Assembly: GCA_963678705.1 (NCBI GenBank)
Contig: OY783219.1
Span: 2,914,001 to 2,978,000, forward strand
Origin: Panorpa germanica
Lineage: Eukaryota > Arthropoda > Insecta > Mecoptera > Panorpidae
Direction: 5' to 3'
Length of the DNA: 64,000 nt
Positions 4,345 through 63,073 of the stretch are shown here, piece by piece (within the stretch, counting starts at the first letter, position 1; the number at the start of each line of letters is the position of its first letter). The notes below the pieces were generated by a model. That model made no database searches. It was not told where the DNA came from and saw nothing but the letters and a program-made list of their open reading frames with translations. A program made the translations under genes and the position numbers.

Positions 4345-6889
4345 CTATATCACTTTTTAATAATTCAAATTTAATCTAAGAACACCCGTGATATTTCAAA
4401 GTGTTAAGCTTACAATATCTAAGACATTGTCTTGCTGGAAGCTTTCGCACACGAAAGCTTTAAGCTCTAAAAGATAAATTTCTAATAACTTAGGTACATA
4501 TGTACTCTATGTAACAATTTCAGTTCAAAGTTATGTTACTAACACATAGAAAAATTATAATTAACAGTAATTTTCTTCAAAGAACAAGGATTTCCCGAGA
4601 TTAAAGGAAATTGTATCTCCAGGCAGTCGTCTGAATTTGACAATAGATAATGTGAGCTGAAAGAAGCTTTACAACTTTGACTTAAGGGTACATCAGAGCT
4701 TACAGAGTGTAGTGTATGATTTGAGGTATAAACCTCTTAAAAAAATATATAGTTAATTAATTTAATTAATCTTTAGCACATTAGAAATAACGGTGCTTAC
4801 TGAAGACTTTAAAAGATTCTTTGTTGTAATCTTAGAGTTTAATAGAGAAGATAATATGAAAAGCAATAGTAGATAATTATTAGCGAAATGCTTCACAACT
4901 TCTTTAGCGAAGCTTTTATAAAGCTCAAATTCATTTTATTTTATGGAGCGTAAGCACCTCCCCATTCACCCTCGCCACTGGATATAATTTTACTCTGTAA
5001 CTGTTTTATTCATGTTCAAGATTCTACTTAAAAATTTCTATTTAGGTTTTTCAAAATACCGACTTCCTCGAAAACTCAGTGAAAAATATGAATACCACAA
5101 AAGTTTGAGAAAAGCTTTCTCTACAAAATTACTGCAAGTTTTACTCTTGAGTTTTCAACTAGTGTGAAATATAAGAAGAAATATCTCTCCTTTGCCTTTA
5201 AGAACCTGTATCATCTATATCTTCTTTGAAAAGTGTTCAAAAGCGTTTAAATTTGAAGGTACCGTAGGTGAGTTCTATACTCTATATAAAATATATTCAA
5301 ATCACAAGCATCTCGTGCGTTTTCCTCAAGCGATTAACTACATATATTATCTGCTCCTTTGTTGAATCTGCTGATACAGCAAGGCATGTGTCTTGTCACC
5401 ATACACCCGTGAGCATGAGCGTCCGCAGGAGATTTATCATAGGAACCCAACCCTTCAGATTCTACTGCATCGCGTATAACTTTCTCAAAGTTTTTCATTC
5501 CACCTAGTAAAACAGTTGATAATAAGTAGGAGGTAATTGTCACGTTTGCCCCTATTCACGGACGCCACTGTGTCTACGAGCCAATACATGTCGGGTTAAA
5601 CGTTAAACGTATGATAGTGCGAAACACGGTTAGCGAAGGTATGAACAGAACAGCTCGATACAAATCAAATAAGTGTTCAACGCATGCGCAGAAGATCGCA
5701 TCGTTTGTGTTGTTTGCACATGTTATATTCCATTTGCATTGATTCGTTGATTCGTTAGGATTGAAAACAAAGGACAGGTGAAACACTGATGGGTTTAGTG
5801 GGCTAAACAAAGATTTTGAAAATGAAATGATACCAGGGAAATATTACCCGTGAAAATAAGCTGTTTACTGAATTGTAAAGCTACATGCTACATTTGAAAA
5901 TCAATTTGTGACTTTATTTGTTTAGGATTTAACTAATATTCAAGGAAAACTCTAATTAGGGATCATACATTTCATCAACCATCGGCCACCTTCAGTATAT
6001 AAACTTTATAAAATTAGAAATTTTCCTTTACTCGATTATAGATTTCGTCTACGTTGAATTTAGTTCTGGCATCTATTAGCCAATCCTCCACAGACTCCAC
6101 ATCCACGTCAACCCGAGACTAAGACCCAGACAGACTTACTTTACATTTTCTCTCTTCCATATTCGCCGACTCCCAAAAGGTTTTCTACTATTTTCATATC
6201 AATTCTACTCTCTGAATCATTTTTAATCATTACTCTATTTTAAAAAATGATTTATGAACATTTTCTTGTGTTAGTTTTTCTCATTTCTCCTACGGATAGA
6301 CTATCATCATCATCGTCACCGTCATCGGGGAAATCGATACCCTGGGGATGTATTTACTCGTTCAGTCTCTATACCAGACTACGAGTAATACTCTACTGAA
6401 GGATTTGGAAGTTTGGCTTTTGTGGAAGTACTATCCATTCGAATTCGAGTGACTACATTGCATTATGTATGTTCGAATGTGATCCTCTGTACCACGGCTT
6501 GGCATTTCGTATTGCCGTTGGAGTAAACACTGGATCTGGCACCAACTGCTGGAAAACTGGAGTGTATGCATTATCCCTGCATGTTTATGCGTCTGGAGAC
6601 AGGGTATTCAACAATTTTGGGTAGCTCAAGTAGACACATAGTTGTAAAGAATCCTTAACCTGTTTGCTTTGCTAGTGACTATATTCGCCTTGGACAAGAT
6701 GTTATTTACGTGCGACTGGTGAAAGAGATTATTCGAAATGCCTTTTCAGTTGTCAAATTCGATGCTATTCTAGAATCCGACCGTTTAGACTACATGGATG
6801 AAGACTGCCTTATTCTAGAAGCCTTAGCTTGACAGTTGTACACTGAAACAGACTTTAGGATCAATGATAAACAATAGGTTGCTATTTCA
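4345..6889. other. No supported gene; decayed sequence
   Basis: Includes a perfect 9-bp hairpin AAGCTTTCG-caca-CGAAAGCTT at 4439-4460 and an NRF-1-like palindrome CGCATGCGCA at 5681-5690. A + strand open stretch at about 6676-6830 (DYIRLGQDVIYVRLVKEIIR then NAFSVVKFDAI) looks like former coding sequence, probably of a transposon, but I cannot name it. Confidence 0.45.
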
Positions 6890-7075
6890 TCGTAATCATA
6901 TTGACGCTACAGCCTTTTCCCTTCCAATTCCTCATATCTATGTTGCTTGTATCCTACTCCACTTGTTCTTTCCAGCTAGCCCATGATCTTCCTTGCAGTC
7001 TTGCACCCTTTGGATTCTCTCCCATCAGTTTCTTAGCGGTTCTGTTCCTAATTTCCGTCATTGGTCAATCGGTTC
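6890..7075 (-). mobile_element. Probable LINE reverse-transcriptase C-terminal remnant
   Basis: Read on the minus strand, 7060-6900 gives RNRTAKKLMGENPKGARLQG followed by RSWASWKEQVE, a stop, DTSNIDMRNWKGKG. It resembles the C-terminal tail of RTE-like and related LINEs (NPxGxRxxGRPxxRWxDQVxxD...NW). The frame carries a stop, so it is a relic. Confidence 0.45.
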
Positions 7076-9373
7076 CATCGCTGTGTTTATTTGCTCATCT
7101 GATATGTTTATTGCATATACGATTTCTGGATCTAATCGGGAACAAAATCTGATAGTATCAGCTCAGATCTGATTTTAGATGCGATAATTAGACAGTTCAT
7201 CTGAATCTAAGACGTAATCTGTCTAAATAGGACTTCAAATGTTTGACAGTATATTGTTTAAAAACTTACATGTTGGAATCTTTTGCCAATCTAATTTTTC
7301 AGACATTTATTTAGCTTTGATGTGTCTTAAATGTGTGGCCGCCATTTGAACTAAATACGAGTGTTCAATAATGGATAATTTTCAAAACTCTGCTACGTAT
7401 TTGGTGGACCCTGTATTTCTATACCCCTATAAATTATGAGATGCATATTTGGCCGTTCTATTGCCCCATTCAATTGCCAAGTAATATGTCATCCATATTT
7501 CAAGCTCAAAATATATTCAATATTGATAAAAAACGTATTTTATGATTTTGTTAACAGATGGCACTGTTTGCAGATATATTTGTCATCATAAACTGCAAAT
7601 TTTTAGTCAATAAAATGCTATAAACAGCTAAACAACTAGAGCATAAATAAGCATGCTATCTCTGGAATAGCACACTTTTGTGTGTGTATGTTTTTTTTAA
7701 TGAAATTTGCTTTAACGTTTTATATTATTCGTAAGCCAATATATAATTTGACCAGATAAGGCTAGGGTGTTGTCACCATCTTCTCTAGAGTTACGTCAAA
7801 AAGGTAATAACAGTAAAAGTAATTAGAGTGTAGCAATAACACGTTCTGATAAACTACGAAAGGAGAAATAAATTTACAATTTTATTTATGTGTGTGTGTG
7901 TGTCAGTCAGACTACAAAGCCCTTTAACAAACAATTAATTAAAATGTTTTTATTAATTAACACATAAATCTTACTTAAGTAATTTTCCGCACGCCTGGAG
8001 TCGCCCTGCCCTCCCTTCCCACTTCGTTTTCATTTCGTTTAGTTTCACGTCCTATCCTATCGTCATCGCAATAAGATTAATAAATTATATAATAGATTGT
8101 TGCAGGCATTTATTGTCCATGGAATAGAATATTATATAATTAGAAAACTGAAGTAGGCACTTTACAGAATAATTACATTAAATATTCATTATTTCTATGG
8201 GAATTGAGTCCCGTCCCGTACTTTATGAAATATATTAGAATAACCTTTGTAGAAAACTCTTGCTTGGTGGAGGCGCCGGATATAAATTAGTGGGGTGCCT
8301 ACTTTAAAAATGTAATATTCGAATAGACAGGTAGAAAATTGCTTGCAGTGCAGTTTACTATTTAAAGTGTTATATTTCAATATTATAAAAAAGCTACAAT
8401 GAGTAGGAGGGTCGCGTTAGTATGCATAGAAAGGGCTGGTCGTGAGACTGTCTGGATCCATCGAAAATAAATGTCCACGTTAAATTCTTTGACACAACAC
8501 TAGTCCCAATATTTTACTGAGTTTCCAGTATACCGGGCTGCTTTATCCGTAAAAACTCTATCATCTCCAGTAGAAGTATACTTCAACATAATTCTGTTAT
8601 TTTTTAATTACATTTAAACGTGAATACTTGCTTGTAGTCGTCGTATACAGGTTCCAAGAAAATCTGTTTTGGATTTTATGAAATGAATCTCCTCGTTTCG
8701 TCTCGTCACGTGCTGATCAAACAGTTTAGCATAGAATTACGTCCGTGCCCGTTGTTGCTGCCAAATTTGATTAAACCTAATTTGTGTTATATTTGCGAGC
8801 GAATTGCTTTCGTTACGCCCAGGTAGATAATCCATTCATTACGTTAATGTAGCTACTTGAAATTTGTTGTGCCATTCAACATTTATTAGGTGTAACAATT
8901 AATTAAATATCTCTAGTTTTATTATTAGCATTTTTCAACTGGAGCTATGTTTAAACCCACCTGTAAGTGCTCATGCTTTGAAGATTTCTTTATATTTATC
9001 AAATGGCGACCACACAATGAAGAAGCAACCATCTTAAGACCTTGGAAACATATAAAGATGCACATAAGTCTATCTCAAAACATAATTGTTAGCGTTATCT
9101 CAGTGTGTTCTAAAGATAGTCCTTATTTTGTCGAACCATCCCTCATCAACACTATTACATAATAAATTCACATTATCTAATATTCACAAATAGTCTATTG
9201 TTTATCTATTGATACTCAAACCTTTAGTTATCTCGCAATGACAAAAAAACAGACTTGCCCTACTTTCACAATGAACGGCTCCTTGGTATATGTTTATGTA
9301 ATATGGTAACCATTATCGCATTTGCGTCATTTCTGAATAAGGCCATGAACTATTAAGACTGGTATATGTGCCC
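7076..9373. other. No supported gene
   Basis: AT-rich DNA with short GT/TG simple repeats near 7890. Reading frames are short and without recognisable content. Confidence 0.5.
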
Positions 9374-10490: not shown

Positions 10491-11679
10491 CATTATTCAG
10501 AAATGTATGAGCCAAGATTTATTGAGTTGTATATATGTATGTATCGATAACTGTAACAGAATTTTAAGTACAGATGTTTAAGATTCTGTAGGTCTATAAT
10601 AAAAAACTTGTAGAAATAAAAATAACACAATAAAAAAACAATAAATAAAAATTAAGTTACCGAACACCACGGCAGCGTTCTTGTTTCTTGTCAAGGGCTG
10701 AAGACTAAGGGTTTACTTCGTGGTATAGCATTATTGCTGAGTCAGGTCGCGTCTCAATTGACCACCAACACCATCATACACTTTCCACCTCCCTTTTTCT
10801 CATCTACTGTTAGAACCACGGCTATACAATTTGGTATTTCTCACCCTTATTTCCTATTTACTATTTGGACCACAGTATTATTTGCAGGGGTAGTAGGCCA
10901 TGTCATTTGTGTCGTTCATGTCATAGAGGGACTTTATAAGAAAACCACATACACACACATACATACATCTTACTGTAAAAGGCTGATATTTGGTTCTTAT
11001 GTGTTTGCGTGTATATAAAGTAATGTAATACATCTAAATAAAAAAGTAAAGAATTACCAGCTATCAGGCCTTTACAGTTTTGTATATACAAAATGTAACT
11101 GTTATATATGTATAGATGGTCAATACATTTTTTTCACCAGACATGTTTCATATACTCCAAAAGAATTTTCTTTTAACATTTTCACGAGGTGTTAAGTGCA
11201 CAACAGAATTTTATTATTTTTGATGAAAGAAAAACTATTTCAGTTTTTATGAAGGGTGAACAAAAATTGTATACAAACATATTAATAAGTTGTATAAAAA
11301 GCGAAAATGTATATATACATTCCGTATTTTATATCTTAAATCATAAACAGTAGGCTGTGCTTTCTATATCAGAAACAAGACAAAACTGAAAACTTAGTAA
11401 CTTGAATATAGGTTATAATAAAATATATTTACAGAGTTTTGATAGAATAAAGAACATTAAGCTTTGCTTAAAATATTTATTTTAAAACCAAAAACAATTC
11501 CCTCTGAAGACCAGAGCGTCTAACGTTCCTTCTTATTCGTTAAAGAGACCACTCTCTAATATTACAAAATGTCAGCAACCCATAACAATATGAATAGATA
11601 ATTATGCAATAATATTTAATTACAAAATAACAATTATGTAATCATAATAATGATTAATCCATCAGCCATACACGTTACA

Positions 11680-28647: not shown

Positions 28648-29150
28648 TCGCCGAGTAATTTTTGTTCATAGAAGATACATCAATAAATGGTGTCGCCAAA
28701 AGCGGTTCTTGAAGAGTATCTTCTTCCCCCCTCATTCTCTACTTATGTTGAGTTGCTTAGTAATTTCAGTTCAAAGAAGATACATCAATAAATGGTGTCG
28801 CCAAAAGCGGTTCTTGAAGAGTATCTTCTTCCCCCCTCATTCTCTACTTATGTTGAGTTGCTTAGTAATTTCAGTTCAAAGAAGATACATCAATAAATGG
28901 TGTCGCTAAAAGCGGTACTTGAAATGTATCTTCTTCCCTCCTCATTCTCTTCTTATTTTGTGTCGCCGAGTAATTGTTGTTCATAGAAGATACATCAATA
29001 AATGGTGTCGCTAAAAGCAGTTCTTGAAGAGTACCTTCTTCACCCCTCATTCTTTTCTTATTTTGAGTCGCTTAGTTATTTCAGTTCATAGAAGATATAT
29101 CAATAAATGATGTCGCTAAAGCGGTTCTTACAGTGTACCCTCTTAAGTGC
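28648..29150. repeat. 105-bp tandem array, about five copies
   Basis: GAAGATA(C/T)AT recurs at 28671, 28776, 28881, 28986 and 29091, an exact period of 105. Copies 1-2 and 2-3 are nearly identical; later copies differ by a few substitutions. Each unit contains GAAGATAC and, about 50 bases later, GTATCTTC (an 8-bp inverted repeat), with AATAAA between them. The array creates a short false reading frame at 28709-28909. Confidence 0.92.
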
Positions 29151-30092: not shown

Positions 30093-30292
30093 NNNNNNNN
30101 NNNNNNNNNNNNNNNNNNNNNNNNNNNNNNNNNNNNNNNNNNNNNNNNNNNNNNNNNNNNNNNNNNNNNNNNNNNNNNNNNNNNNNNNNNNNNNNNNNNN
30201 NNNNNNNNNNNNNNNNNNNNNNNNNNNNNNNNNNNNNNNNNNNNNNNNNNNNNNNNNNNNNNNNNNNNNNNNNNNNNNNNNNNNNNNNNNNN
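30093..30292. other. Assembly gap (200 N)
   Basis: Exactly 200 undetermined bases. The left flank (29930-30092) is unusually CpG-rich and contains two similar stretches around GCACACTG(C/T)AA, so a repeat or GC-rich block probably broke the assembly here. Confidence 0.99.
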
Positions 30293-40382: not shown

Positions 40383-43300
40383 CTCCACCCTCGTCAATTG
40401 AAATTGAAGGCCACGCCCAGCATTCTAAAGTTGAAGTACGTGAAAATCAAGAACTTTCTTTAAGATGTATTGTCGCTAATTCGAAGCCGGCAGCGCAGAT
40501 CGTCTGGTACCGAGGAAGCGTTGAACTTAAACCAGGTGAGACTACAACAAATTTCTTAACATTTGTCTTAATTTCGTTGTTCCGGAAAATGTATGCTTTT
40601 ATTTTTAAAATTTACTATTTATGTACATCGATAAATAAGATACAAATAATGATATTTTAACATGCAAAATTAAGGAGATGTATTTCAATATAATAAATAA
40701 GAATAATACCATAAAATTTATGTGGATACCAGGACATTGTGGAATAAGAGGAAACAAAATTGCGGATAAATTGGCAAAGGAATCAATAAATTTAGAAATT
40801 GACGAAAGTGAAATTACCTTCATATGAAATTTTTAATATAATCAAGAAAGTAAACTTCAATTTGAGAAACCAAAATGTCATTAAAAAAAAGTCAGTTAAA
40901 AGGAAGAGATTATTATATGTTACATCCAAATTTAAGTAAGAAAAGATGGTTTAGAAATGAGTCCCGCAAAATTATATCAACTATAATCAGAATCAAAAGT
41001 AATCATTGTAAAACTCACCTGTCCAGCTCACCTGTACAAAATTAATATTAAATCCTACGATAGATGTCAATGTGGTGAAAAAGTAACTTTGGATCATATT
41101 ATATTTGAATGCATAAATTATAGTTTAGAAAGATCAAAATTCAATAGTGAAATATTAGATGTGATTAAAACTTTTCCTGTTAATACTAAATTTTGTTAAG
41201 TGATTCAAAATTAATTAGTGAATTATTTCAATATTTAGAAATTTGTAAAATTGAATAATAAATTGTAAAATATGTATAAAAAATGTTTGATGGTGGCTAT
41301 GACGAATAAAAGTCAAGGTAAATAAATAAATAAATATAAAAAAAAGTTACGATACGTTGGAAAAGTGTCCAATAACATAAATTGAATCCAACTTTATTTA
41401 GTGAACTCACAGCAGATCCCCAGGAAGCGGTATAAAACTTAAACAATCCATTCAACGATGATCAATACACATTATCTCTAAACTTAAACCAATTATCCAG
41501 CAGACTCCAACAGAGTTACAAACCGTATATACTCATGTAGTCGTATCTATTCAGTCTTCCCCATAAACAATCTGCAGAGTTTTCTTTCTGGATCATTTAA
41601 CTGCAACAGTTTTTCCAAGATCGAATCTGACAACCTCGCGTTACCATCATGATTTTATCTCATTTCGTAGAATCTTACTTTAGCTCTTTGAACGATTTGT
41701 TGTTACGCCTGAATACATGCATTACTACTTACTCGTATTTCTGTGTGTTCCCCCACCACCACACCATTACCATTATCCATACCCCCCACCAGTACTGCTA
41801 CCGTTAACGCCACACCATCGCGATGTCTTTGTTCTTCTTCGTTTTCTTTTACTCTTCTCTTCTTTCTGCTGAACATGTCAATAACATTTATATTATATCA
41901 AATAATAATCCGAGGGAATTGTATTATCAGTCTTCTGATTATATATTTAGGTTGGGAGTACGTTTCTATCCATTTCTGGATAATTTTCCGTAAATTGGTT
42001 ATTTCATTTCGTTTATAATGTAAAGCTTTGATATTCTTGTTTGTAACTAACACAGCTCGTCTAAAAACACAGGAATTAATGGATAAATTTGTAGGTTATA
42101 AACGTCTAAATATAATAATAAATTCAAAACGAACATTGTAACTGTATTACAAATATTATACGTCAAACAATTCGTTATTACCTTTAATATTCCACCTCCA
42201 TTTTTTTTATTGACACAACCGCTATGAAAACACCCATAGAGAATTTTAATTCAATTTTTTACATTACCTTAAAAACATGACTCGGTCGGTACGTTAAATG
42301 TACTGAACAAATTCAATGAACTAGGATGATTGTAATCAATTGCAGTACTCGTGCTATCCCCTCCATGACTCCTGACATCCTCCCTCTGTGACTACCTTAC
42401 TAACTCTCCCTCCTCCATCACCTCCTACCTGACCTAACTCAATCACGTCGATCGTCGATCGAGCCACTAGTGACTAGTGACTGGTCACAGACAGTCTCTG
42501 GTGCGATGGTTTGAATGTTTGCTGGGCTGTTAAGTGATTATTGGTGAATTAAGCGAAAGAATGGATGACTTTTTATAGTATTACCTGATTACATACATCA
42601 ATTCGTAATAAAGTCTGACATTCATAAATTACATGGTTATTTAACCCCCAGTCTCCATAGTAACATCTTTTTCAAGCGCATAACCTAGATGTTATCTTGA
42701 TTGCATACACTTCAGGCGCTTTTTATTCATCAAATAATAGTATGGGCTTTTGTCTTATGTCTTAATTTCTATAAAAGTGTACTATATATTGATAAAGTAG
42801 GTTACTACAACCTGAAATGTTCAATAATTTCTTAATAACTCCTTATATGTTAAGAAATTGTAATAATTAAAAAAGTCATTTAGTCATGCGTGTGACATCA
42901 CAACCGCTGCCAACCTTACAGATCATAAATCTCTGCTATATGTATTCAAATATCAAAATATCAAATATTATTTACAGCTATTACAAGGAACAATAAAATT
43001 TCAATATTATGTCTACCGCAAAAGGGTTAAATAAAATAAAGACTTATTATTCTTTGACTTGACTTGATTATTTCGACTACCAACAGCTACAAAACATTAG
43101 CACAACACTGACCTACTCAACAAATAAGTTACGTTAAAATACATTTCACGTCATACAAATATGGCCGACCATTTCTAGCGCTAAAACTACAATTCAAACT
43201 TTCAATTGCTATATCTTCGTCAATATTTAGATATTTAATAAAATAGACACGCCAATACACATTTATTAACATCAATTTCAATCAACAATTGTAAAATCCA

Positions 43301-46300
43301 ACACTAAAAAATGAGGACACAAGCCCCATTAACAACTTTTCGATTTTTCAACGTTTGATTGAATAAGTAGATATTATTTTACATAATACATTTTACATAT
43401 TTTTCTAACCAATTGTTCTTCAAGTACCACTTTGTGTAATTATTTTATATATGAAAAATATAAAAGCAAATTTTGAAATAAACCGGGTTAAGAGCAATCA
43501 ATTTACCGGAAACTTTTTGAAATGGATAAAAGGATTATCAGAAGTGGGATAACGTTTTCAAAAGTAATTTGTAAGTACTTGTTAAATAAATGAATGTGAT
43601 AATTAATTTCTATTGTCTTTCTATCCCATTCGGAATGGATTCCATTTTTAAACGATGTTAAATATCTTGCTTTTTATACGACCAAAAGAAATTATATTGG
43701 TTATATATTATGCATTCAATTATTGAAATTTATCCAACATATTATTATAGCCACAAGATACTAAGTTTTTTTACTTTTTAACCACAAGTTTCACTAAAAG
43801 CATAATAATTTTACGAAGCATATTCTTAACCCACATATAAATATAATTTATTAAATATTTCCATGCCGGTATTATCATAAATTTTATCTAAATCCAGTAA
43901 GTTTGCCCCACAAATCAACATTCTGACATTTAATCCATCATATCGCATCGCAGTGCACTTATTCTGCAAGTGTATAGAGCACTTAATGTGTTACAGCGTG
44001 CTTAGAGATGTGAATCAAATGGAAACATCGATGTGTGCAAAGAAAATAAATTATATGTAGAAGAGATTGCATTATATGTTTCTGCAGGCGGATTACAATG
44101 ATATCCGCTGCAACCATCGATATTTTATTCTTTCCACTAGTTATAGGAATCTACAATACATCTGTCATGTAACAGTACTTTCTTTTGCATTGAAAATGCT
44201 TTAGAAAATATATATTTCATAAAATTACTTTGGGAATTCAACTGTACATTTGTTATTTAAATCGAAATCATTCGTTCCAACAGTACAAATACAATATATA
44301 TATGTGCATGTAAAACATGGTATATACATTGAATCTAGATAATATTTAATAATAAATGAAGAATAGAAGAGTTTTATTTCCAATGACATGCTTGTTTAAA
44401 ATACAAATAAAGAGTATGTGTTATAATAATTGCATGTAGTTTAGGGTTAATGTTATTATATTTGCCTACTTTATAATCAGGCGCAAATCTTTTTATGACG
44501 TCTTTACTTATTATTATACAATCTAAATATGTATTTTTTCAGATTCACGAAAAGATGAGACAACAGAACAGCCTGGAAAACGTTTCACGGTTTCATCTAA
44601 ATTAACTTTAAAACCAAATTCTGATGATGACTACACCGAGTATAGTTGCCAGGCTAAGCACCAGGCGCTCCAACCAGATATGCCAATGAGAGCTACAGTT
44701 CAACTCTCAGTGTTATGTGAGTATCAATTCAACTTTGAATTCCTGGAGGGCCTTTAAACATTTATCATGAGATTACTGAGATAAATACATTTCTCATATG
44801 ATAAACGTTTAATCAAAACAATTATTTTCTAATCAAAGATCACAGATGATGTAACTGCTTTGGTATCCACATAGTGTCAGGCGACAGCTGGTAAACTGTG
44901 GGAGTAGTATTCTACAAACGCGTGCCTGTTGTTTGATTAAATCAATTACAATTTCTGCAATGAATTCGGTGTTGCGTTGCAAACGGAACCAAACCATTGC
45001 TTCATTATATTCTGTTATACGATGTTCATGATACAAATAACACGATTCAAAATGATTAACAAGGTCCCAGCTGTAAAGAGCATGAAAAGCTTGATGTACA
45101 TGTATACACTGCTAAATATATACCCGTTGTAAAACAATAAAGTAGTTAAAATAACATTGTTTAAAAATACAATCATTTAAAAATAAACAGTATATGTTAT
45201 AATGATTGCATGTAGTTAAGGGAGCTGTTGACTGAGTATAAAACAACATGTGTTATTATATTTGCCTATTCTTTATTCAGGCGCAAATATATTGGTGCTT
45301 GTTATAAACTAATACTGCTTACATCTAGAGTATTATGTTTGCTTAAGCAAGGTAATTTAATTTTTATAACTTAATAAAAACACAGAACAAGATATAAAAT
45401 AAACATTTATAATATAATACAAAACTAACATATTTGTTACTTTACTAACTTTAAATTTTAATATTAACTTCTGTAATACCTGACTAGAACTTTTCTAAAG
45501 CTATTTTAAACATAAATTTAGTTTCATGACGCTAACGGGCTGTCCAAGTATTTTTAATATATTCATCTGTCAATCCAGCTATAGAGAACGAACGCATTAA
45601 ATCAGTTATATACATACCCGAGATATGAATTAAATTATATGTAGAAGGGATTGTATTTTATGTTTTTGCAGGCGGATTAAAAATAATTATGTGATTTGTG
45701 TTTTTTTAGTTTATTACTACATCTCTTAATCTAAAATGGGGAACATAAAATATGGCATTAAATTTTTAATCCGTGTAAAATTAGAAATCCTTGCAAATGT
45801 TAGAAGTAGCCGAGAGTAATAAGAATATATATTATGCATTAAATAGAGAGCACTTCCGTTTTTACCTCCATTAATTTATGCTTTTAATTATTTTTAAATA
45901 TTTAACAAATAAAGAAATTACAAATAAACTTGTAGGATGAAAATCTCAGCAGTTTATTTTAAATGTACATATAAAATAAATCATTAATTTTTACTTCTAG
46001 CTTACTTTGTATTTTCACACCTTTTAAAAAGAAGTTCAATTGTATCTTTGTTCTTCTCCTACTTCTCATGATTCCATTTGTTTACACACTATTACAGTAC
46101 AACAGATGTTACAGTATTTTTAATAGTACATGCATTGCAGAATTTTTAGTCTAGAAATAAATACAATATAATTTAAACACATAAATAAAACTAAGCGTGT
46201 ATATATTTGCCTAATGTCCAGGCGCTGCATAACAATAAAACTTTACAGAATTTTGTTTTAATCCTGGTAACAATATTTGTAATTTTATATTCAGATCCTC

Positions 46301-49300
46301 CTGGTGCACCATATATCGAGGGATATACTCCTGGGGAACAAACAAGAAGGGGGCAAACAGTAGAACTGGTATGCAGAAGTCGGGGTGGTAATCCACCTGC
46401 CCAATTAATTTGGTATAAAAATGGCGAACAGATCAGAATGGCTTACAGGTATTTTTATATACATGTTGTGAATATTGCTGTTTGTATTTATTTATTTCAA
46501 CGTTTATTAATATTTGATATATATTTACTCAGAACTGCTGGAAGACTTTCTGAGAATATTTATACCTTTACCGCAGAGGCTAGTGATGATAAAGCGCGGT
46601 ACCGCTGTGAAGCTAGCAATATTATGTCAAATGCTCCATTAAAAGCTGAAATAGAACTCAGTGTCTTATGTAAGTATATTTAATATATATTTATACCTAT
46701 ATATTAACATCAATAATTAATTATAACATAATTATTTCAGTTGCCCCCGCACATGTCACCATAAGTGGTCCCAGTGAAGCCCGTGTCGGCGACCCTGTCC
46801 CCCTACAGTGCGCAACGGCCCCCTCTAATCCCACTGCTGAAGTCAAGTGGATGGTGGCAGGAAAACAAATACGAAACGCCACCACCAGGACCGTCGTGTC
46901 ACCAGACGGTACGCTGAAATTAATTTATTTATATTATCCTCATATAATCCACCTTCATAATTTTATTTATCTATTTATTTCCTTTGGATATAATCCATCA
47001 TCTTCATTCAATTATAATTTAATACGAAATTAAATATTTATTTAAATTTTTCCACTTTTATTATTAGCTCGCACTCGGATGCTATATTGTAATTCTAATA
47101 TAGATCTAAATACGAATGAAATAATGTTGACTCAATTTCAATCTAGCCGCGAATATGTAAATAGTATTTATGCTAATAACGCCTGATGTTTTAATGTGTG
47201 GTTTAAAGCAAACAAAACAACTGCTAAAGTTATGTTAAGTAATTAAACGTATTATTCTCTTATATTCAAATCATGTAAATGCTCACATATATTTACAAGC
47301 GATTTTGAAATATGTAAATGTTATAATTTATCATTTACATTTAAAGACTTCTGAAAGATTAATTAGTATTTTTAATACTCTTTTAGAAATGTGTTCGTTC
47401 CATTTCTTAGTGAATTTATTGAAGTAGATATATCTTCACAATATATCGGATAAATTACTTTTTAAAAAAAGTCTTAATTTCCAACATACATCAAAGAACA
47501 AGCTGCTAAAAGCTCCGATATCTCTTGACGATACATCTTGACTAACAGCGCTATTTACAAGTGCAGCTACAGACAGAGATATAGAGTATGTACTGTTTCT
47601 AAATTGTAATTTAGAGTAACTGCATCGCATCTATTATTTTAGGTGGATGGGTCACTACCTCCAACATCACAGCTGTTGTGGAGCCCAACACTAGGTCCCT
47701 GGTGGTCATTTGTCACGGACTGAACATGCAACTAACGGAAAACGTCGTCAGCACACACACAGTGAATGTTTTGTGTAAGTATTCCACTATATCTCTGTTG
47801 AATTATTATCTTGAAAGTATTTTCAGAAACACCCTATAAATATATTGTTAAGATTTTCATCTAACAATCTATTGGAAATAAATCATGTTTTAAATGTTCT
47901 TTTTCTTAACCTTTGTGTAGATCCACCCTCTCCGCCTTTGATCACTGGCTACTTGGAGGGTTCTGTCATACCTGCGGGCTCTGTTCAAAGATTACTTTGC
48001 GTTTCATCTGGTGGAAATCCTTTGGCATCTCTTACTTGGTTCAAAAACGATAAGAAGGTATTTTACAAGATATTCATTAAAAATTTCCTTTATTCTTTAT
48101 CTTGATTAATATTTTACATCTAAATATCTATTTCAAATAAGTATATAGCTCCTATCAGATGTTGTCTGCCTTTGTTAAAGATGTAATTTATTATTTTTGT
48201 ACTAAATTAAACAATGTTTTTTATTATGTTTCAGATAAATTCTGTTCTAAAAACAAACGAGAAATCAGTATCCGCTGAATTAACAATTCTCGCAAACGTA
48301 ACTGATAATCTTGCGAGATATAGATGCGAAGCTGCAAATTCAGCGACAGAAATTCCATTGTTTGAGACAACAATACTAAGTGTTCATTGTAAGAAATTAT
48401 TATCTATATTGTTAAATCTTTTATATTATAAATTAATAAAGTGTTTATGTTTATGAAATTAATGGTAAAATAATTTTAGTTGCGCCGGAAGTTGTTAAGA
48501 TTCGAACAGAACCGTCTGAATGGAAGCCTGGCACTCAGGCGACTTTAATTTGTGATAGTAGCTCTAGTAATCCTCCAGCTAAACTGTCATGGTGGCAAGA
48601 TGGGATCCCAGTCTTAGGTAACTTATACAAAAACATACTTCACTTTTTCCAAGTTACATCTTTTCATATTGTAATTAAATTTTAGGATCAGCTAATAATA
48701 CCAAAGCTGGTTTACATGGAGGTACAGTATCTTCCATAGAAATGAAGTTAAATGTCACACAAGATATGAACGGACTGGTATATACATGCCAGGCGACTAA
48801 TGAAGCATTACAACGAAGTATTCACGAGACTGTCACCCTGCAAGTGCTATGTGAGTTATCTTGTTCATAACAATGTATTATTGTTAATTGTAGACTAGAT
48901 ATATCTACTAAATAATTGTCAACAGTTATGTTGTAAGCTAGTGATTTATATATCTGAGGTTACATTACTACTACCCTAAAATATAGGCAACATTTTTAAC
49001 ATATTACATTTAGTATATTACTTGTATTTCTCTTACACGTGAAAGCCGCATTTCTACCTAAATTAAATAGATTTAATTATATTACAGATCCACCAACATT
49101 TCATGAACATGATTCAATAACTACAGGAGTGGAAGGTGAAAGTCTTTTAGTTTCTTTAACTGCAAATGGAAATCCTCAGTCAATAACATATACTTGGGTG
49201 AAGGATGGGTTGCCTATTACTCAGGCGGGATCAGGAACAGGTACAATATTTTACATTTAAATAGCATGTTTTATATTTCTTTTATAAATGTTTCTATAAA

Positions 49301-52300
49301 TTTTAGGGTCAGACAGAATTGTTTCTGAGGGTCCTGTTCTAAATATAACCCGTTTAAGTCGTCATGATGCAGGTGTTTATACTTGTGAAGCTATAAACTC
49401 ACAAGGTTCGGTTGTCATAAATGTCACGATAGATGTTGAATGTAAGTTATTTTAAAATTTATTATATTTGTGTCGTTCAGTCGTACTGAAGGTGTATTTT
49501 TTCTTGTTTTTAGACGGTGCCACAATAAAATCAGTATCTGAAAATGTAATTGTCGAACCAAATGAAGAAGTTACATTGTCATGTACTGTTCAAGGTATGA
49601 CAAAGATATTTCTATAGTCTGCGTTGTTTTTATCATTATTAATTGTATTTTTATACTTATTAAGGTAATCCATTAACCGAACATAATATAAAATGGACGC
49701 GGGATGATTATGACATGGAAGCAAAAACATCAACCACTTATAATAATGGTACAAGCTACTTACATATTAAAAAAGCAGTTCGTGAAGATGTTGGAACATT
49801 TAAATGCGCTGCCGATAATAATATAGCAACACCTACAACACGAGATGTATTATTAATAGTAAAATGTAAGTAAAATCATGAATTCTAGTTTAATTCATTC
49901 GAATTTTATATTTATTTGAATTGTTTTGTTATTTAGATAAACCAGAAATATCAACGACTCCATCCCTGCTGCGAGCAGCCGCCGGTGCTGGAGGTCGTGG
50001 TAGAATACCATGCCGGGCATCTGCTGCTCCAAGACCTCGATTTAGTTGGGCTAGAAATGGGCAACCTCTGACCACTAATACTTCCAGCAAATATTATGTG
50101 GAATACAGACAGGTTTGAATTCTATTATCAAAATCAATATTTCTTTGTGAATAAAGAATACCAGATGTTAATATGGTTTTTTTTTTCTTACGTTACAGTT
50201 GGATCCTTTAACTTATGAGTCAACACTTTTAGTCGAAAATGTAGGAGGTGTTGATTATGGCTCATACGAATGTGTCGCAAGAAATGAATTAGGTTTTAGC
50301 ACATCTTCTGTTCGTTTAGACGTTACGTCAGCACCAGGTACGTATTATTATTTTATAAATGCTTCATATTACAAAGGGTGCGACATATATTGATTTCCTT
50401 TTTTCAGATCCTCCAATAACATTGACGGTATTGAATGTAACTCATGATTCGGTGCAACTAGGTTGGCAACCAGGGTTTGATGGTGGAATGATTCCGACAT
50501 ATCGAATTCGATACAGGTAAATAATTTAACAACTTAGATGTAAATCGCTGCACGTTATACTGCGCAGACGCAACATTAAAATCTTATAATAATTATATTT
50601 CGCTTTTACAGAGAAATTACATCAGAAAACTATCGTTACGAGGATGTTCCTCCTAGTAAACCTGGGGATCCCTTGCAGCACACAATATCTGGTTTAGGTT
50701 TATCAACGCAATATTTATTCAGCATTATGGCATTTAACAAATTAGGTCATAGCAAATATCTACCGGATTTAGTAAAAGCTAAAACCGCAAGTAAGTTTTA
50801 ACAATATTAAAATAAAACAAATAAATAATCACTTAACAATACTAACACAAGTATATTTGTTCCTTTCACGCTTACTAAAACATTCACCGATGGATTTTAT
50901 TTCACTTGTGTGTCCCTTTCTCTCTTTCAAATGCTTGATCAATTCACTATGACTAATGTAGTTGAAGCCCCACCTTCTAATCCTTCTCCAAGCCATGGAG
51001 GCGCTTCTGGCACTCCTGGGCTACTCCTGTTAATTGGTGTTGGTGCTGGCACCATTTTAGTTCTTCTGAATGTTGTGTTAATCGTCTGTTGCGTTCATAG
51101 ACGTGCGAAAAAACGTCTTACAGGTAAATTTCAATGATGAAACCTGCATGTTTCCTATTTCTTTACTTTGTGTGTCTGTATGTGTATTTTAAGTATAATT
51201 TGTGTTTTATTTCTTTGTAAAATATTTGTAATTTTATTTGTTATTTTTTTTTCTTTATAAAAGGCGCAACTGATTCAATTCCTGATGAACTTTTGGACAA
51301 AGCAGATCTACCAAGGCTTGTAATTGTTGGAGTAGCACTTGCAGCAGTTGGCCTTTTGTTGATAAACGCTGCTTTAGTTGCCTGTTACATATTAAGAAAA
51401 CGTGCTAGAGGTTATTTTTATTTATTATTATTTGAAGTTATTTAACAATATTATTATTTTAATAGCAGTATTTGTGTAGCATTTGTACTATTTCTTTTAT
51501 TTGTCCCTAATGTTTATGCAACACTTTTTACGTTATTATTTTTATAATCAACATGTGTAATATCTTTTGTATTTATAAAACTTATAATGTGCGTAAGAAA
51601 TGGTTATGTATACAGAGTTTAAAATTGATATATGCAATTTCTCATGAAACTATTTTGCATAGAAGCAAGTGGACAAAGCAGCAAATCAGCAACGATTGAG
51701 ATGTACGCCCCCAGCTCATACAACGATACAGTCACCGGCGAAACTCTAAGCTCAGTTTCAGAGAAGAGTGATAGTTATTCTAACGAAGATAGCCAACCTG
51801 ATTATATGGTATGAACTTACTTAGATCTTTCTTCAGATTATTGGTACATATTTGAGAAATAGTATATAAGTTATGGATGTTACAGGATGAAAACCGGAAG
51901 AAATCTTCAGCGTACATCTCCGATGGTGTGAACATGGCAGATATCCCACCTCCACGATATCAACATTCAGAAAACATCTCAATGCAACCTGTTAATTCAC
52001 TATCCATGATGGGTGGCTCAAATACAAGAACATTGCCGCATCCAAGAACGCAACATAACTCCCATGACATCACTCGCAGCCGAGACGCTGAATCGATCGG
52101 AAAAGGATATCTAACAGCACCCTCTCCAGCTCCTCCTATGGATGGATCGTACTACAATATGACCAGCGAGAGATATTTCTCTTACCCACCAATGGATTAC
52201 ACTCCTCCTTTAGATTACAACTGTAGTCCACCAGTGCAACCAACATCCGGTACTCTTCGTAGAACACGTGCAGCTCACAATACAGGCGTGCCACCAGATG

Positions 52301-52674
52301 TAACGGTCTTACATAATCAGTGTGGACAACCTTTGCATAACAGTACACCGTTGAGTCAAATATCCCATTTGCCGACAGGAAATAATGTACACTATAATCA
52401 TAGTAACCCAATTCATAATTCAAACCATCAGTTAGGAATTATGCCTTCTGGCAATCAAATGAAGCAACCGCATTCCATACTCAAAGATCCATCAAGGAAG
52501 ATGCATAATCCCAGTCCAACAAATCAGATGCTAAGAGAAGGGCATCAGATCTTGTCAGTTCAAAATGCTAGTTTAGGTAGTGTGGGAACTTATGATCCAA
52601 ATGGTCCAAATTTAAGCACATTTACCCAACCCGGATCCCTGAACTACCCCGAAACGGAAGGGCACCTTGTCTGA
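40383..52674 (+). CDS. sns: Nephrin-like Ig/FN3 adhesion receptor (sticks-and-stones/hibris family), 3' part of gene
   Basis: Single-pass surface receptor of the nephrin family. In flies these proteins bind Kirre/Rst partners on neighbouring cells in myoblast fusion, the nephrocyte diaphragm and eye patterning. Coding exons read by me: 40383-40535, 44543-44716, 46295-46448, 46533-46669, 46741-46908, 47643-47774, 47921-48057, 48235-48388, 48480-48617, 48686-48850, 49088-49240, 49307-49441, 49514-49594, 49665-49865, 49937-50112, 50199-50337, 50408-50516, 50612-50790, one of two transmembrane exons (50962-51123 or 51264-51410), 51663-51808, 51886-52674. All junctions are GT..AG and the joined frame stays open: about 1259 residues with the first transmembrane exon, 1254 with the second. 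Exon pairs encode eight Ig domains (Cys...Trp...Tyr-x-Cys), then FN3, membrane span and tail. The first exon starts inside a codon, so it is not the start of the protein. Fly relatives have, to my knowledge, nine Ig domains, so a signal peptide and Ig1 should lie upstream. The sns versus hibris assignment is not settled. Confidence 0.9.
40660..41345 (+). mobile_element. 5'-truncated LINE 3' end inside a receptor intron
   Basis: Non-LTR retrotransposon remnant lying in the intron between the first two Ig exons of the receptor, same strand as the gene. 40690-40815 reads NTIKFMWIPGHCGIRGNKIA then DKLAKESI, the C-terminal RNase H motif (WxPGHxGIxGNxxAD) of I/Jockey/R1-type LINEs. 41060-41200 gives a Cys/His end, IKSYDRCQCGEK...LDHIIFECINY, typical of the ORF2 C-terminus. 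It ends in a simple (TAAA)n-like tail at about 41315-41335. Frameshifts break the frame, so it is dead. The 5' limit is approximate. Confidence 0.8.
41350..44542 (+). other. Remainder of the large receptor intron
   Basis: AT-rich intronic DNA with no exon seen. It includes a C-rich patch at 41735-41870, a palindromic cluster with overlapping CGATCG and ACTAGTGAC repeats at 42447-42487, and one copy of a dispersed repeat at 43236-43330. Confidence 0.5.
43236..43330 (+). repeat. Dispersed repeat, copy 1 (inverted partner at 63909-64000)
   Basis: About 95 bases here match the reverse complement of 63909-64000 with only a few differences, including TAATAAAATAGACACGCC and the end ATGAGGACACAAGCC. 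The high identity implies a recently active family. It sits in a receptor intron. The element class is unknown because neither copy shows coding sequence. Confidence 0.75.
44048..45679 (+). repeat. Pairs of duplicated segments flanking the second Ig exon
   Basis: Two short sequences each occur twice as direct repeats. One is about 48 bases, from AAATTATATGTAGAAG to GCAGGCGGATTA, at 44048-44095 and 45632-45679. The other is about 80-100 bases, with TTGCATGTAGTT near its start and CAGGCGCAAAT at its end, at 44412-44489 and 45188-45289. Their order is swapped between the two places. They flank the exon 44543-44716. This may be an old segmental duplication with rearrangement, or small mobile elements; I cannot tell which. 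Confidence 0.55.
50408..50790 (+). other. sns: Fibronectin type III domain exons of the receptor
   Basis: Two exons (50408-50516 and 50612-50790) encode one FN3 domain between the last Ig domain and the membrane span. It opens with DPPITLTVLNV. The B-strand tryptophan is in VQLGWQPGFDGG and the C strand reads TYRIRYR. The second exon holds a typical GLGLSTQYLFSIMAFNKLG stretch (the L-x-P/S-x-T-x-Y motif region). A single membrane-proximal FN3 domain after a run of Ig domains is the diagnostic layout of nephrin, Sns and Hibris. The second exon ends one base into a codon (phase 1), which fits both downstream transmembrane exons. Confidence 0.9.
50962..51123 (+). other. sns: Transmembrane exon A of the receptor (162 nt, phase 1-1)
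   Basis: Encodes a Pro/Ser/Gly-rich juxtamembrane linker, then a hydrophobic span (LLLLIGVGAGTILVLLNVV and on to LIVCC), then a basic stop-transfer HRRAKKR. The acceptor is read as ...ctaatgtag before TTGAAGCC; an AG six bases downstream is also in frame and would remove two residues. The donor ACAG/gtaaat is good. It joins FN3 upstream and EASGQSS downstream in frame. It is clearly related to exon B, with a shared pattern of Leu/Ile, Gly-Val, Leu-Asn, Cys and Arg at matching spacing. Confidence 0.85.
51264..51410 (+). other. sns: Transmembrane exon B of the receptor (147 nt, phase 1-1), probable alternative to exon A
   Basis: Encodes an acidic linker (TDSIPDELLDKADLP), a hydrophobic span (RLVIVGVALAAVGLLLINAA and on to LVACY) and a basic stop-transfer ILRKRAR. 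The acceptor follows a T-rich tract and reads ttctttataaaag. The donor CTAGAG/gttatt is weak, but the same gttatt donor appears at the glyoxalase exon 1 boundary in this window, so it may well be usable. Both this exon and exon A start and end in phase 1 and have lengths divisible by three, so each can be used alone without shifting the frame. Using both would give two membrane spans and place the conserved tail outside the cell, so mutual exclusion is the sensible reading. Confidence 0.75.
51663..51808 (+). other. sns: Conserved first cytoplasmic exon of the receptor
   Basis: Encodes the most recognisable piece of the tail: SKSATIEMYAPSSYNDTVTG, then ETLSSVSEKSDSYSNEDSQP and DYM. From memory this block is strongly conserved among insect Sns/Hibris proteins, and its tyrosines are candidate phosphorylation and SH2-docking sites. 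The exon starts after tattttgcatag in phase 1, receiving G from either transmembrane exon to make Glu, and ends in phase 0 at ATG/gtatga. Confidence 0.88.
51886..52674 (+). other. sns: Terminal coding exon: intracellular tail with C-terminal GHLV
   Basis: A 262-codon open stretch plus stop, starting DENRKKSSAYISDG after ttacag and ending ETEGHLV at the TGA at 52672-52674. It is rich in Pro, Ser, Asn and His, as expected of a disordered signalling tail. Visible short motifs are PPRY (a PPxY-type WW-binding site), several Tyr in Pro-rich context (YPPMDY, TPPLDY) and YDPN. The last residues resemble the THLV end of vertebrate nephrin, a PDZ-binding terminus. A good splice-donor-like AAG/GTGAGA begins three bases after the stop, so a 3' UTR intron is possible. 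Confidence 0.88.
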
Positions 52675-56323: not shown

Positions 56324-57230
56324 ATGGGTGAACCAACTGGATTATCAAATTCGGAAGCAAAAACCTTATGCAAAGAGCCAGATGCATCGACAAAGGTTAT
56401 TTATGCCAGGCTTTTATAGTGTTTTTAATTGTTTGTTACGTAATATTAATTTGGAATGTTTATGTTTTGTAATTGTTTAACACATTTTGATGATATATTA
56501 GTTCTTAACTATCAGTAAGAATGTATGTCTATATTTTACATTAAAATCTTACTGATGTGTATTTTGTTTAATTCTGAGATTATCAATTGTTCATTTATTA
56601 ACAAATTGTTGTTATTTATTTTCAGGATTTCTTATTCCAACAAACCATGTACCGTATTAAAGATCCCAGAAAGTCTTTGCCATTTTATACTGAAGTTCTT
56701 GGAATGACTTTGCTTCAAAAATTAGATTTTCCTGAGATGAAGTTTTCTCTTTATTTTATGGGGTATATAGCCTGGAATACATCATTTAAAGATTTTGCTT
56801 GATGATTTTAATATTTAATACATTTTAGATATGAAAATGCTGCTGAAATACCAAAAGATGACGTCGAGAGACGTGAATGGGCTATGAGCCGCAAAGCAAC
56901 TGTAGAGCTTACGCAGTTAGTTCATTTACATTACGAAGATTTATCTTTTTTCTTAATTTATTAAAGTATTTAGTTATTTACAGCAATTGGGGAACTGAAA
57001 CTGACCCAGACTTTAAATATCACACCGGTAATTCGGACCCTAGAGGTTTTGGACATATTGGATTGATGGTTCCAGACGTACAAGCCGCTTGTGATCGATT
57101 TGAAAAGTTTGGTGTTAATTTTGTTAAAAGACCACAAGATGGAAAAATGAAAGGCCTTGCATTTATCACAGACCCTGATGGTTATTGGATTGAAATTTTC
57201 AATGCAAAGCACGTCGCGACTAGTTCTTAA
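56324..57230 (+). CDS. Glo1: Glyoxalase I (lactoylglutathione lyase), complete four-exon gene
   Basis: Converts the hemithioacetal of methylglyoxal and glutathione to S-lactoylglutathione, the first step of the cytosolic glyoxalase detoxification pathway. Exons: 56324-56395, 56626-56762, 56829-56915, 56984-57230, totalling 543 nt and 180 residues plus TAA (human is 184). The protein follows the human enzyme closely: [73 protein letters not shown]. The four expected metal ligands are present at about Gln30, Glu96, His123 and Glu169. The start ATG sits in good context (aacATGG). Donor 1 is the unusual AAG/gttatt. No signal peptide is seen. It lies about 3.6 kb downstream of the receptor stop and about 750 bases upstream of the next start codon. 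Confidence 0.96.
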
Positions 57231-60900: not shown

Positions 60901-63073
60901 TCTTCGTTTTTGATAACACATGCATCGTGTTAAACAAAACACAAAAATAGAAAATTTAGAAAATTCTTTCCATTTATATAACAATTTTTATAAATATAGT
61001 GAAGCTAATTTTAACCAGGTTAAGTTAAAATTATTTTTCACATTATTTCAGCTTTAATATTATTAGATAGTGCAGTTTTAGTGTAACGAAAAGTGTGCGT
61101 TCAGCCAAGATTTGACTACTTTGTGTTTTGTGAAATTGTTATCAAAGTTATCCACTTGTTATTGGAATACACATGTCTATTATATATGCAAAGCAATAAA
61201 TAAATAAACCTAAATCAATAAAATTATTGCGAAAAGGTAAATAAAGTTAATAAAACTTGAAAAAATTAAATTATAGTAAGTACAGCAGTGCTGACATAAT
61301 TCGAACGCCCCTAAATTTGAGAAAACATTTGTTTTTGTTGGAAATAAATTACATAAGTCGAGTAGGGTAGCCTTTTTACTTTATTTGTAATGTATATTTC
61401 ATTTTGTTCTACTTTTAAAAAATGTACCCGTTTTTGAACCCGAATTAAATCTGTAGCAAATTTAAGAAAATATTTCACAGTGTGTAAAACACCGATTACA
61501 TTAAAATTTACAGGCAGTGTCATAGGTTGGTCATTCTTATCATTTGTCATTACTTAGCACAAAACATTTTGTATAGTATACATATATTTAATTTATACGG
61601 GAGCTAATGTACTATATGCACTCGTTGTTTAATTATATAAATATCAATATAAAAAAAATCGATAATATCTAATTAAACATATTTTTTAATTACAGTTCAC
61701 GGCCTATTTCCGGTCTCTCTCTGAATGGAGGTGCTTCATTCCGGAGTAGTCCAGGATCAGTTCCGGGAACTCCAGTGCTTTCCATGATGCCCCCCGCCAC
61801 GGTAATTGTCAATAAGGATGGCGGGGGGTACGGCATGAAGGTAATTTTATCACTTATTGTATTCATATTTTTTTTAACAAACCTTTTTAAGATTTTTTGA
61901 AACCTCTCTACCCCTAAGTTTTGACGGAAATACCAAGGATAAATAACTTTGCAAACGATTTTATGTGTAACAGACTTTAAAATTTGTCTGTTACATTTTT
62001 TGTCTCTCCCTTGTAATATAATATCTTGACATATATTTTCAGTCACGCAAAAATCACCAAACATACTCGTAAATTAATCACAAAGTTAATTCGAGTATTC
62101 GTGAATTTATAAACAAATTTCTAATGACAGTGATATTGACATTAATTCAAAGACAATCGAATATCAATATATTTGTGTATTCATTCTTTCATACCATTCC
62201 TAAATTAGACAAGAGTAATTATAACATGTTTTGTAAATATACGAGTACATCAAGTCAAGATTACACATTGAACTGACGTGTTCAATTATTTTTGTGTGTT
62301 TATATATATTTACTTCTGTATTTATTGTTTTAGGTATCTGGAGACAAACCTGTGTATGTTCAAAGTGTGAAAGAAGGTGGCGCTGCACAGAGAGCAGGTC
62401 TACATAGCGGGGATAAGATCATCAAAGTAAGTTTGAGAGACCAAATTAGGAAAAGGATCGATTATGATAGATATCCTCGATCCAGCGCTATATTTTCTGG
62501 GTTACGCTGTGTTTTACGGTGCAGAGAATCAATCTCTCGCAAAAATCACTTTACATTCACACCTATTGTTCGATTTAGGCAAAACGTTCAGGGCCTGTAT
62601 TCTTGAGTCTTGCGAACAATGATCGTGATCGAACAGATATGATTAATATGAGTGAAACATTTTACGAATCACTTTTAGAACAGTATTCCTTAACTATAAT
62701 ATTAACTAATAATGAAATCAGGAAGAGTACAGGAATATTCTTTTAAAACTAATTCATAAAATGTTTCACTCATATAAATCAGATCTGTTCGATCACGATT
62801 AATGCTCGCAAGACTCAGGAATACGAGTCCAGGTCCTCACTGCCATCGAACCTATCGAATTTTATTGAATAAAACGTGGAAGAGAAAAAAGCAGCTGCGA
62901 TCAAAGTTGTTTTTAAAAGCAACCCAATTTTACGGGGCTAGACAAATAATATTTTATATATATTCAATAAGTACCCTGACTTTTTACTAATCTTTGACCT
63001 ATTTTTTTGTTACAGGTGAACGGCGTTGATGTCACGGAATCGACTCACACTGAAGTTGTCGCACTTATCAGAT
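57979..63073 (+). CDS. RhoGEF2: PDZ-RhoGEF (RhoGEF2 / ARHGEF11-12 family), 5' part of gene, runs off window
   Basis: Guanine-nucleotide exchange factor for Rho; in flies RhoGEF2 acts downstream of G12/13 signalling in apical constriction. Exons seen: 57979-58013, 61696-61840, 62334-62426, 63016-63073 (ends in phase 1 at AGA T/gtaagt). The start MDNYHSGNHSE is the first in-frame ATG after an in-frame TAA at 57877. After a Ser/Gly/Pro linker comes a PDZ domain: VIVNKDGGGYGMKVSGDKPV, then VQSVKEGGAAQRAGLHSGDK, IIKVNGVDVTESTHTEVVAL and IR. This matches the PDZ of ARHGEF12 in order and in hallmark residues (SGDxPVxVQSVKExGAA, GDxIIKVNG). The carboxylate-binding loop reads GYGM. The RGS-like, DH and PH domains expected for the family lie beyond 64000. 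Confidence 0.92.
58014..61695 (+). other. Intron 1 of RhoGEF2
   Basis: A 3.7-kb AT-rich intron bounded by AA/gtaagt and ttacag/TT. I see no coding exon, RNA gene or clear transposon in it. Short A/T runs and aataaa-like strings are frequent, as expected for this composition. Confidence 0.6.
62427..62588 (+). other. Intronic sequence 5' of the foldback element
   Basis: Follows the good donor AAA/gtaagt of the PDZ exon. It is locally less AT-rich than typical intron here (GGATCGATTATGATAG..., GGTTACGCTGTG) but contains no supported exon. Confidence 0.4.
62589..62838. mobile_element. Foldback / MITE-like element in a RhoGEF2 intron
   Basis: The two halves are near-complete reverse complements over about 100 bases each. 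The left arm runs from CAGGGCCTG through GAGTCTTGCGAAC and GATCGTGATCGAACAGAT to GAGTGAAACATTTTACGAAT. The right arm mirrors this from AATTCATAAAATGTTTCACTC to AGACTCAGGAATAC and CCAGGTCC. There is no coding capacity. It is consistent with a non-autonomous DNA transposon with long terminal inverted repeats; the superfamily is uncertain. Confidence 0.8.

Follow-up and report, generated by a model that had tools for sequence, protein, structure and literature searches.

Candidate alternative membrane-anchor exons in a nephrin-type adhesion receptor gene of Panorpa germanica

Near the 3′ end of a receptor gene of Panorpa germanica, two adjacent exons, here called A and B, each encode a membrane span. 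This arrangement raises the question as to whether the gene provides one membrane anchor or two. From our analysis of the window, by which we mean the whole stretch of 64,000 nucleotides, we consider it likely that A and B are alternative membrane-anchor exons, and that each mature mRNA carries one of the two, A or B, with ectodomain and tail unchanged, much as Dscam1 uses its exon 17 variants. From the layout of the locus we infer splicing of both exons, the presence of one of them in each mRNA, and a possible functional difference between the two forms.

The gene lies on the forward strand of the window. In our model, 17 upstream exons coding for Ig and fibronectin III domains (40383..50516) are followed by a constant exon that completes the fibronectin III domain (50612..50790) and ends in phase 1 at the donor CAA/gtaagt. 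One of the upstream exons was modelled from position 46545, where its acceptor has the worst score of all; 46533 is the likelier start. Downstream of the A/B pair, a first constant exon with a weak acceptor (51663..51808) begins the tail, and the last coding exon (51886..52674) encodes the remainder up to the C-terminus ...ETEGHLV and the stop codon. The C-terminus of vertebrate nephrin is similar to this GHLV end.

When spliced, the model (40383 to 52674) contains Ig_3 in seven stretches and fn3 in one, followed by the span in exon A or B. In a search against solved structures (best 60 of 694), SYG-2 (4ofy_D) matched query residues 1-288 in one stretch with an E value of 3e-40, and titin stood in the top row (E 1e-41, best 60 of 694) with its best match over the later Ig region (query 742-840). 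Together, the SYG-2 match and the domain order support the prediction that the gene encodes an adhesion receptor of the nephrin/Sns/Hibris/SYG-2 type, and the identity proposed in the preliminary description, a nephrin-like receptor, holds up. The B span and tail alone gave a single match to solved structures, a weak one to a ribosomal protein (E 0.061). Scans of viral contigs and of prokaryote genome contigs found no relatives; these collections are uninformative on conservation among insects.

The 5′ end of the gene may lie outside the window. About 1.9 kb before it, an exon at L040:7852-8031 is phase-compatible with exon 40383 and has Ig1-type matches to SYG-1 (5.9e-9) and Kirre (5.5e-8), with no SYG-2 among the 10 matches listed. 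If this putative Ig1 exon belongs to the nephrin-like gene, an intron of about 42 kb would occupy most of the window. Several other features were seen along this DNA. A tandem repeat with a unit of 105 bases is present in 4.5 copies at 28654-29129 (89% matches), and a run of 200 N at 30093-30292 is probably an assembly gap. The intron 3′ of exon 40383-40535 holds an RNase H fragment (40639-40824, E 1.2e-7), probably the remnant of a retroelement. An open frame with a glyoxalase domain (56877-57227, E 1.2e-13) is probably part of a neighbouring gene.

Exon A (50962..51123, 162 nt) is preceded by an intron of 171 nt (50791..50961) in which a pyrimidine-rich stretch lies far upstream of the acceptor. 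It encodes, in order, a linker rich in Pro, Ser and Gly, a membrane span with CCV at its end and the basic sequence HRRAKKR, and it ends at the donor CAG/gtaaat. After a further intron of 140 nt (51124..51263), exon B (51264..51410, 147 nt) encodes an acidic linker followed by a membrane span and the basic sequence RKRAR; it has a good acceptor and a weak donor, GAG/gttatt. Both exons have GT-AG splice sites, begin and end in phase 1, and are divisible by three in length. The coordinates, lengths, phases, spacing and order of linker, span and basic stop-transfer sequence are all as first described, and the tandem anchor feature as such is confirmed.

How unusual is such a pair? For comparison we located Dscam1 in the same genome by way of a C-terminal family match (E 8.2e-31). 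This gene contains an exon 17-type pair at L037:4607-4777 and 4892-5071, with exons of 171 and 180 nt that lie 114 nt apart and are both phase 1-1; the end of the second exon (5071) was chosen between two candidate donors. We then scanned 385,408 strand-bases, comprising both strands of the window and of 13 loci of 9.9 kb from the same genome, for cassettes delimited by AG and GT with an open, phase-matched frame, an uncharged stretch of 21 residues with a mean hydropathy of at least 2.5, and at least three basic residues after it. The only matches to this strict scan were A, B, Dscam1 17.1 and Dscam1 17.2, a result to be read with the facts that the thresholds were picked after A and B had been seen and that the loci were partly chosen for Dscam and cadherin genes. 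Because ties were merged, the scan prints A with an inner donor at 51114. Lowering the hydropathy threshold to 2.2 added one further place, a hydrophobic open cassette with a basic flank at window positions 62260-62397, and a threshold of 2.0 with two basic residues added three (window 10814-11002, one in L035 and one in L038). A plainer scan that disregards splice sites returned six open hydrophobic frames flanked by basic residues on the two strands of the window. Two of these are A and B, and one of the other four (51511-51696) is in the intron 3′ of B. At the settings used, cassettes of the A/B type are rare.

The preliminary description had gone further and called A and B homologous, with the look of an exon duplication. 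This part is not borne out by direct comparison. Local alignment of A with B gives a score of 49, or 0.21 of the self-score of B, with P values of 0.041 and 0.038 in two composition-matched shuffle tests, and the best ungapped DNA match between them is 7 bases. Exon A scores higher, at 51, against the unrelated exon 17.2 of Dscam1. By the same test the Panorpa Dscam1 pair is no more alike internally than A and B (P 0.14 vs 0.04), where the former value was obtained with the longer 17.2 end; the shorter 17.2 end leaves the score unchanged at 51. Since the Dscam1 pair itself fails, the test has little power, and alignment of such short spans cannot separate duplication from convergence. What stands of the original proposal is that of two receptor forms with one ectodomain and one tail on different anchors, which is the best reading of the locus and matches the layout of Dscam1.

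The principal alternative to two working anchors is that only one of the exons serves in this role and that its neighbor is a relic or seldom used, B being the likelier candidate for this. The scores of the two exons bear on this question. Ranked by codon composition against 700 stop-free background windows, A falls within the top 0.9% and B within the top 9.7%. Of the 18 upstream exons, which were themselves part of the training set, 17 score higher than B. The splice-site scores, built on the gene's own sites, are 3.94 for the acceptor and 9.31 for the donor of A, and 7.73 for the acceptor of B. The donor of B scores 1.51, the lowest among 21 donors. These scores discriminate poorly, with non-sites in the same interval reaching 7.81 (acceptor-like, 51438) and 8.18 (donor-like, 51588). 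As to the acceptor of A, its AG-free zone of 108 nt is the longest among the 21 acceptors measured, and this long zone together with the pyrimidine stretch far upstream suggests that a distant branch point may be used. The weak donor and the modest codon score of B are what a relic might display. A relic would also be expected to accumulate stop codons, whereas B has an open, phase-matched frame and a good acceptor, and encodes a complete span with its stop-transfer sequence, in a scan where such cassettes are rare. On balance, we regard a defunct or little-used B as unlikely.

The weak donor of B also suits a different fate of this exon, in which B is read through into the following intron to give an alternative end and a receptor with a short tail. 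The reading frame would then continue only as far as ...RKRARGYFYLLLFEVI and a stop codon. The intron in question (51411..51662, 252 nt) contains one TATAAA and neither AATAAA nor ATTAAA, and the donor of B is in phase with the exon that follows. With these observations against it, we think such an ending very unlikely.

Two alternative anchors, used one at a time, are favored over these readings by the phase, length and splice sites of A and B, by the rarity of such cassettes, by the identity of the gene, and by the presence of Dscam1 and N-cadherin pairs in the same genome. This leads to the question as to how one exon would be chosen. Mutually exclusive tandem exons are described as adjacent, of the same phase and of similar length (PMC3923563); similarity in sequence is a further property expected of them. 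A and B lie 140 nt apart, are both phase 1-1, and measure 162 vs 147 nt, which corresponds to the first three of these properties. The choice between such exons may be enforced by the reading frame, by crowding of the branch point against the upstream donor or by competing intron pairing, none of which is obligatory. All four possible splice outcomes (A, B, A with B, and neither) run in frame to one shared stop codon; therefore, the reading frame does not enforce a choice. Steric hindrance is an unlikely cause as well, because the last AG before the acceptor of B lies 68 nt from the donor of A, with the branch point probably beyond that AG, and introns as short as 66 nt occur in the gene model.

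The donor of A and the acceptor of B both score well, so that nothing visible stands in the way of splicing A to B; the joined product is in frame. An mRNA containing both exons would encode a protein with two spans. According to topology rules, the tail of this protein would face the outside, with the basic flank of B on the wrong side of the membrane, which makes us consider a regular product of this kind extremely improbable. The form containing neither A nor B would lack a span. A splice variant of nephrin without the membrane region is reported to be expressed in humans and rodents (PMC3144718).

Candidates for enforcing the choice between A and B are competing intron pairing and the binding of a regulator. 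The two introns that flank B are predicted to pair with −44.1 kcal/mol, where 1000 shuffles average −32.9 kcal/mol (P 0.013). This pairing ranks first among 31 intron pairs of which another also gave P 0.013 (150 shuffles), and the introns flanking A gave P 0.142. Pairing around B would loop out this exon and bring the donor of A near the acceptor of the tail; inclusion of B would call for pairing of the introns around A. As a mechanism of choice, the pairing around B is only suggestive, and we report it as a lead.

If one anchor is used at a time, form A would be anchored by a span that has two cysteines at its inner end, with a flexible Pro/Ser/Gly linker before it and HRRAKKR after it, and form B would have an acidic linker and RKRAR. 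Switching between them would alter the stalk, the span, the lipid or helix contacts and the juxtamembrane contacts, leaving ligand and tail unchanged. The swap might thereby shift the location of the receptor or the tightness of its clustering. Receptors of the Sns type are reported to have roles in myoblast fusion, in nephrocyte slit diaphragms and in the spacing of sense organs. With such roles, an anchor switch would be testable in established assays.

We also considered whether the two anchors may stand in for a second gene. Flies have two nephrin-type genes, Sns and Hibris. A search of the Panorpa genome for a second nephrin gene, with 37 of 105 candidates scored, gave 48 matches; its 20 best rows show the gene described here, and the matches elsewhere share 23 to 33% identity with the query and all fall in the Ig/FN3 part. 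A single-copy nephrin-type gene with two anchors is a possible reading of this genome. The broader proposal, that Panorpa has one such gene where flies have Sns and Hibris and that splicing of A or B supplies the division of labor that flies obtained through gene duplication, appears quite unlikely to us.

How does this pair of candidate anchors compare with known systems? Like nephrin, Sns, Hibris and SYG-2, the predicted receptor combines Ig repeats with a single FN3 domain, one span and a tail. It differs from them in its candidate pair of alternative spans: exons of this kind in the nephrin/Sns/Hibris/SYG-2 family are not reported among the matches listed from open-access papers.

A second comparison is offered by N-cadherin. 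The ME-18 exons of arthropod N-cadherin each carry part of the span (PMC2655722). A tandem pair on the minus strand of L028 (reverse-complement positions about 5469-5729 and 6872-7120), which codes for an EGF-like part and the start of a span, resembles these exons and is named on that ground; the two are 33% identical over 83 query residues. Two further cadherin-type loci, L029 and L030, were scanned for spans. N-cadherin ME-18a/18b resemble A and B in that tandem alternative exons hold part of the membrane span; they differ in that they encode an EGF-like part and a partial span, and in Panorpa the two exons lie about 1.1 kb apart. Graded homophilic interactions are reported for the 18a and 18b isoforms (PMC2655722), and the same source describes no difference in neuronal targeting between 18a and 18b in the fly. 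It also cites Dscam membrane variants as being sent to distinct neuronal compartments (PMC2655722). By analogy with these systems, a role of the A/B switch in targeting or affinity is plausible, though not to be taken for granted.

The closest counterpart is Dscam1. In insects, the membrane region of this receptor is reported to come in two variants of exon 17, present as an alternative cassette (PMC1397879, PMC8042237). Exons 17.1 and 17.2 share with A and B the tandem arrangement, the 1-1 phase, the combination of linker, span and basic flank in each exon, and the setting in an Ig/FN3 receptor. Dscam1 is a separate gene with three ectodomain clusters, and the exclusive use of its variants is established (PMC1397879), whereas for A and B we infer it. 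If both anchors are used, the Panorpa gene would be a third adhesion gene, beside Dscam1 and N-cadherin, in which splicing swaps the membrane anchor alone, and anchor swapping would then be a recurrent solution and no longer a mere oddity.
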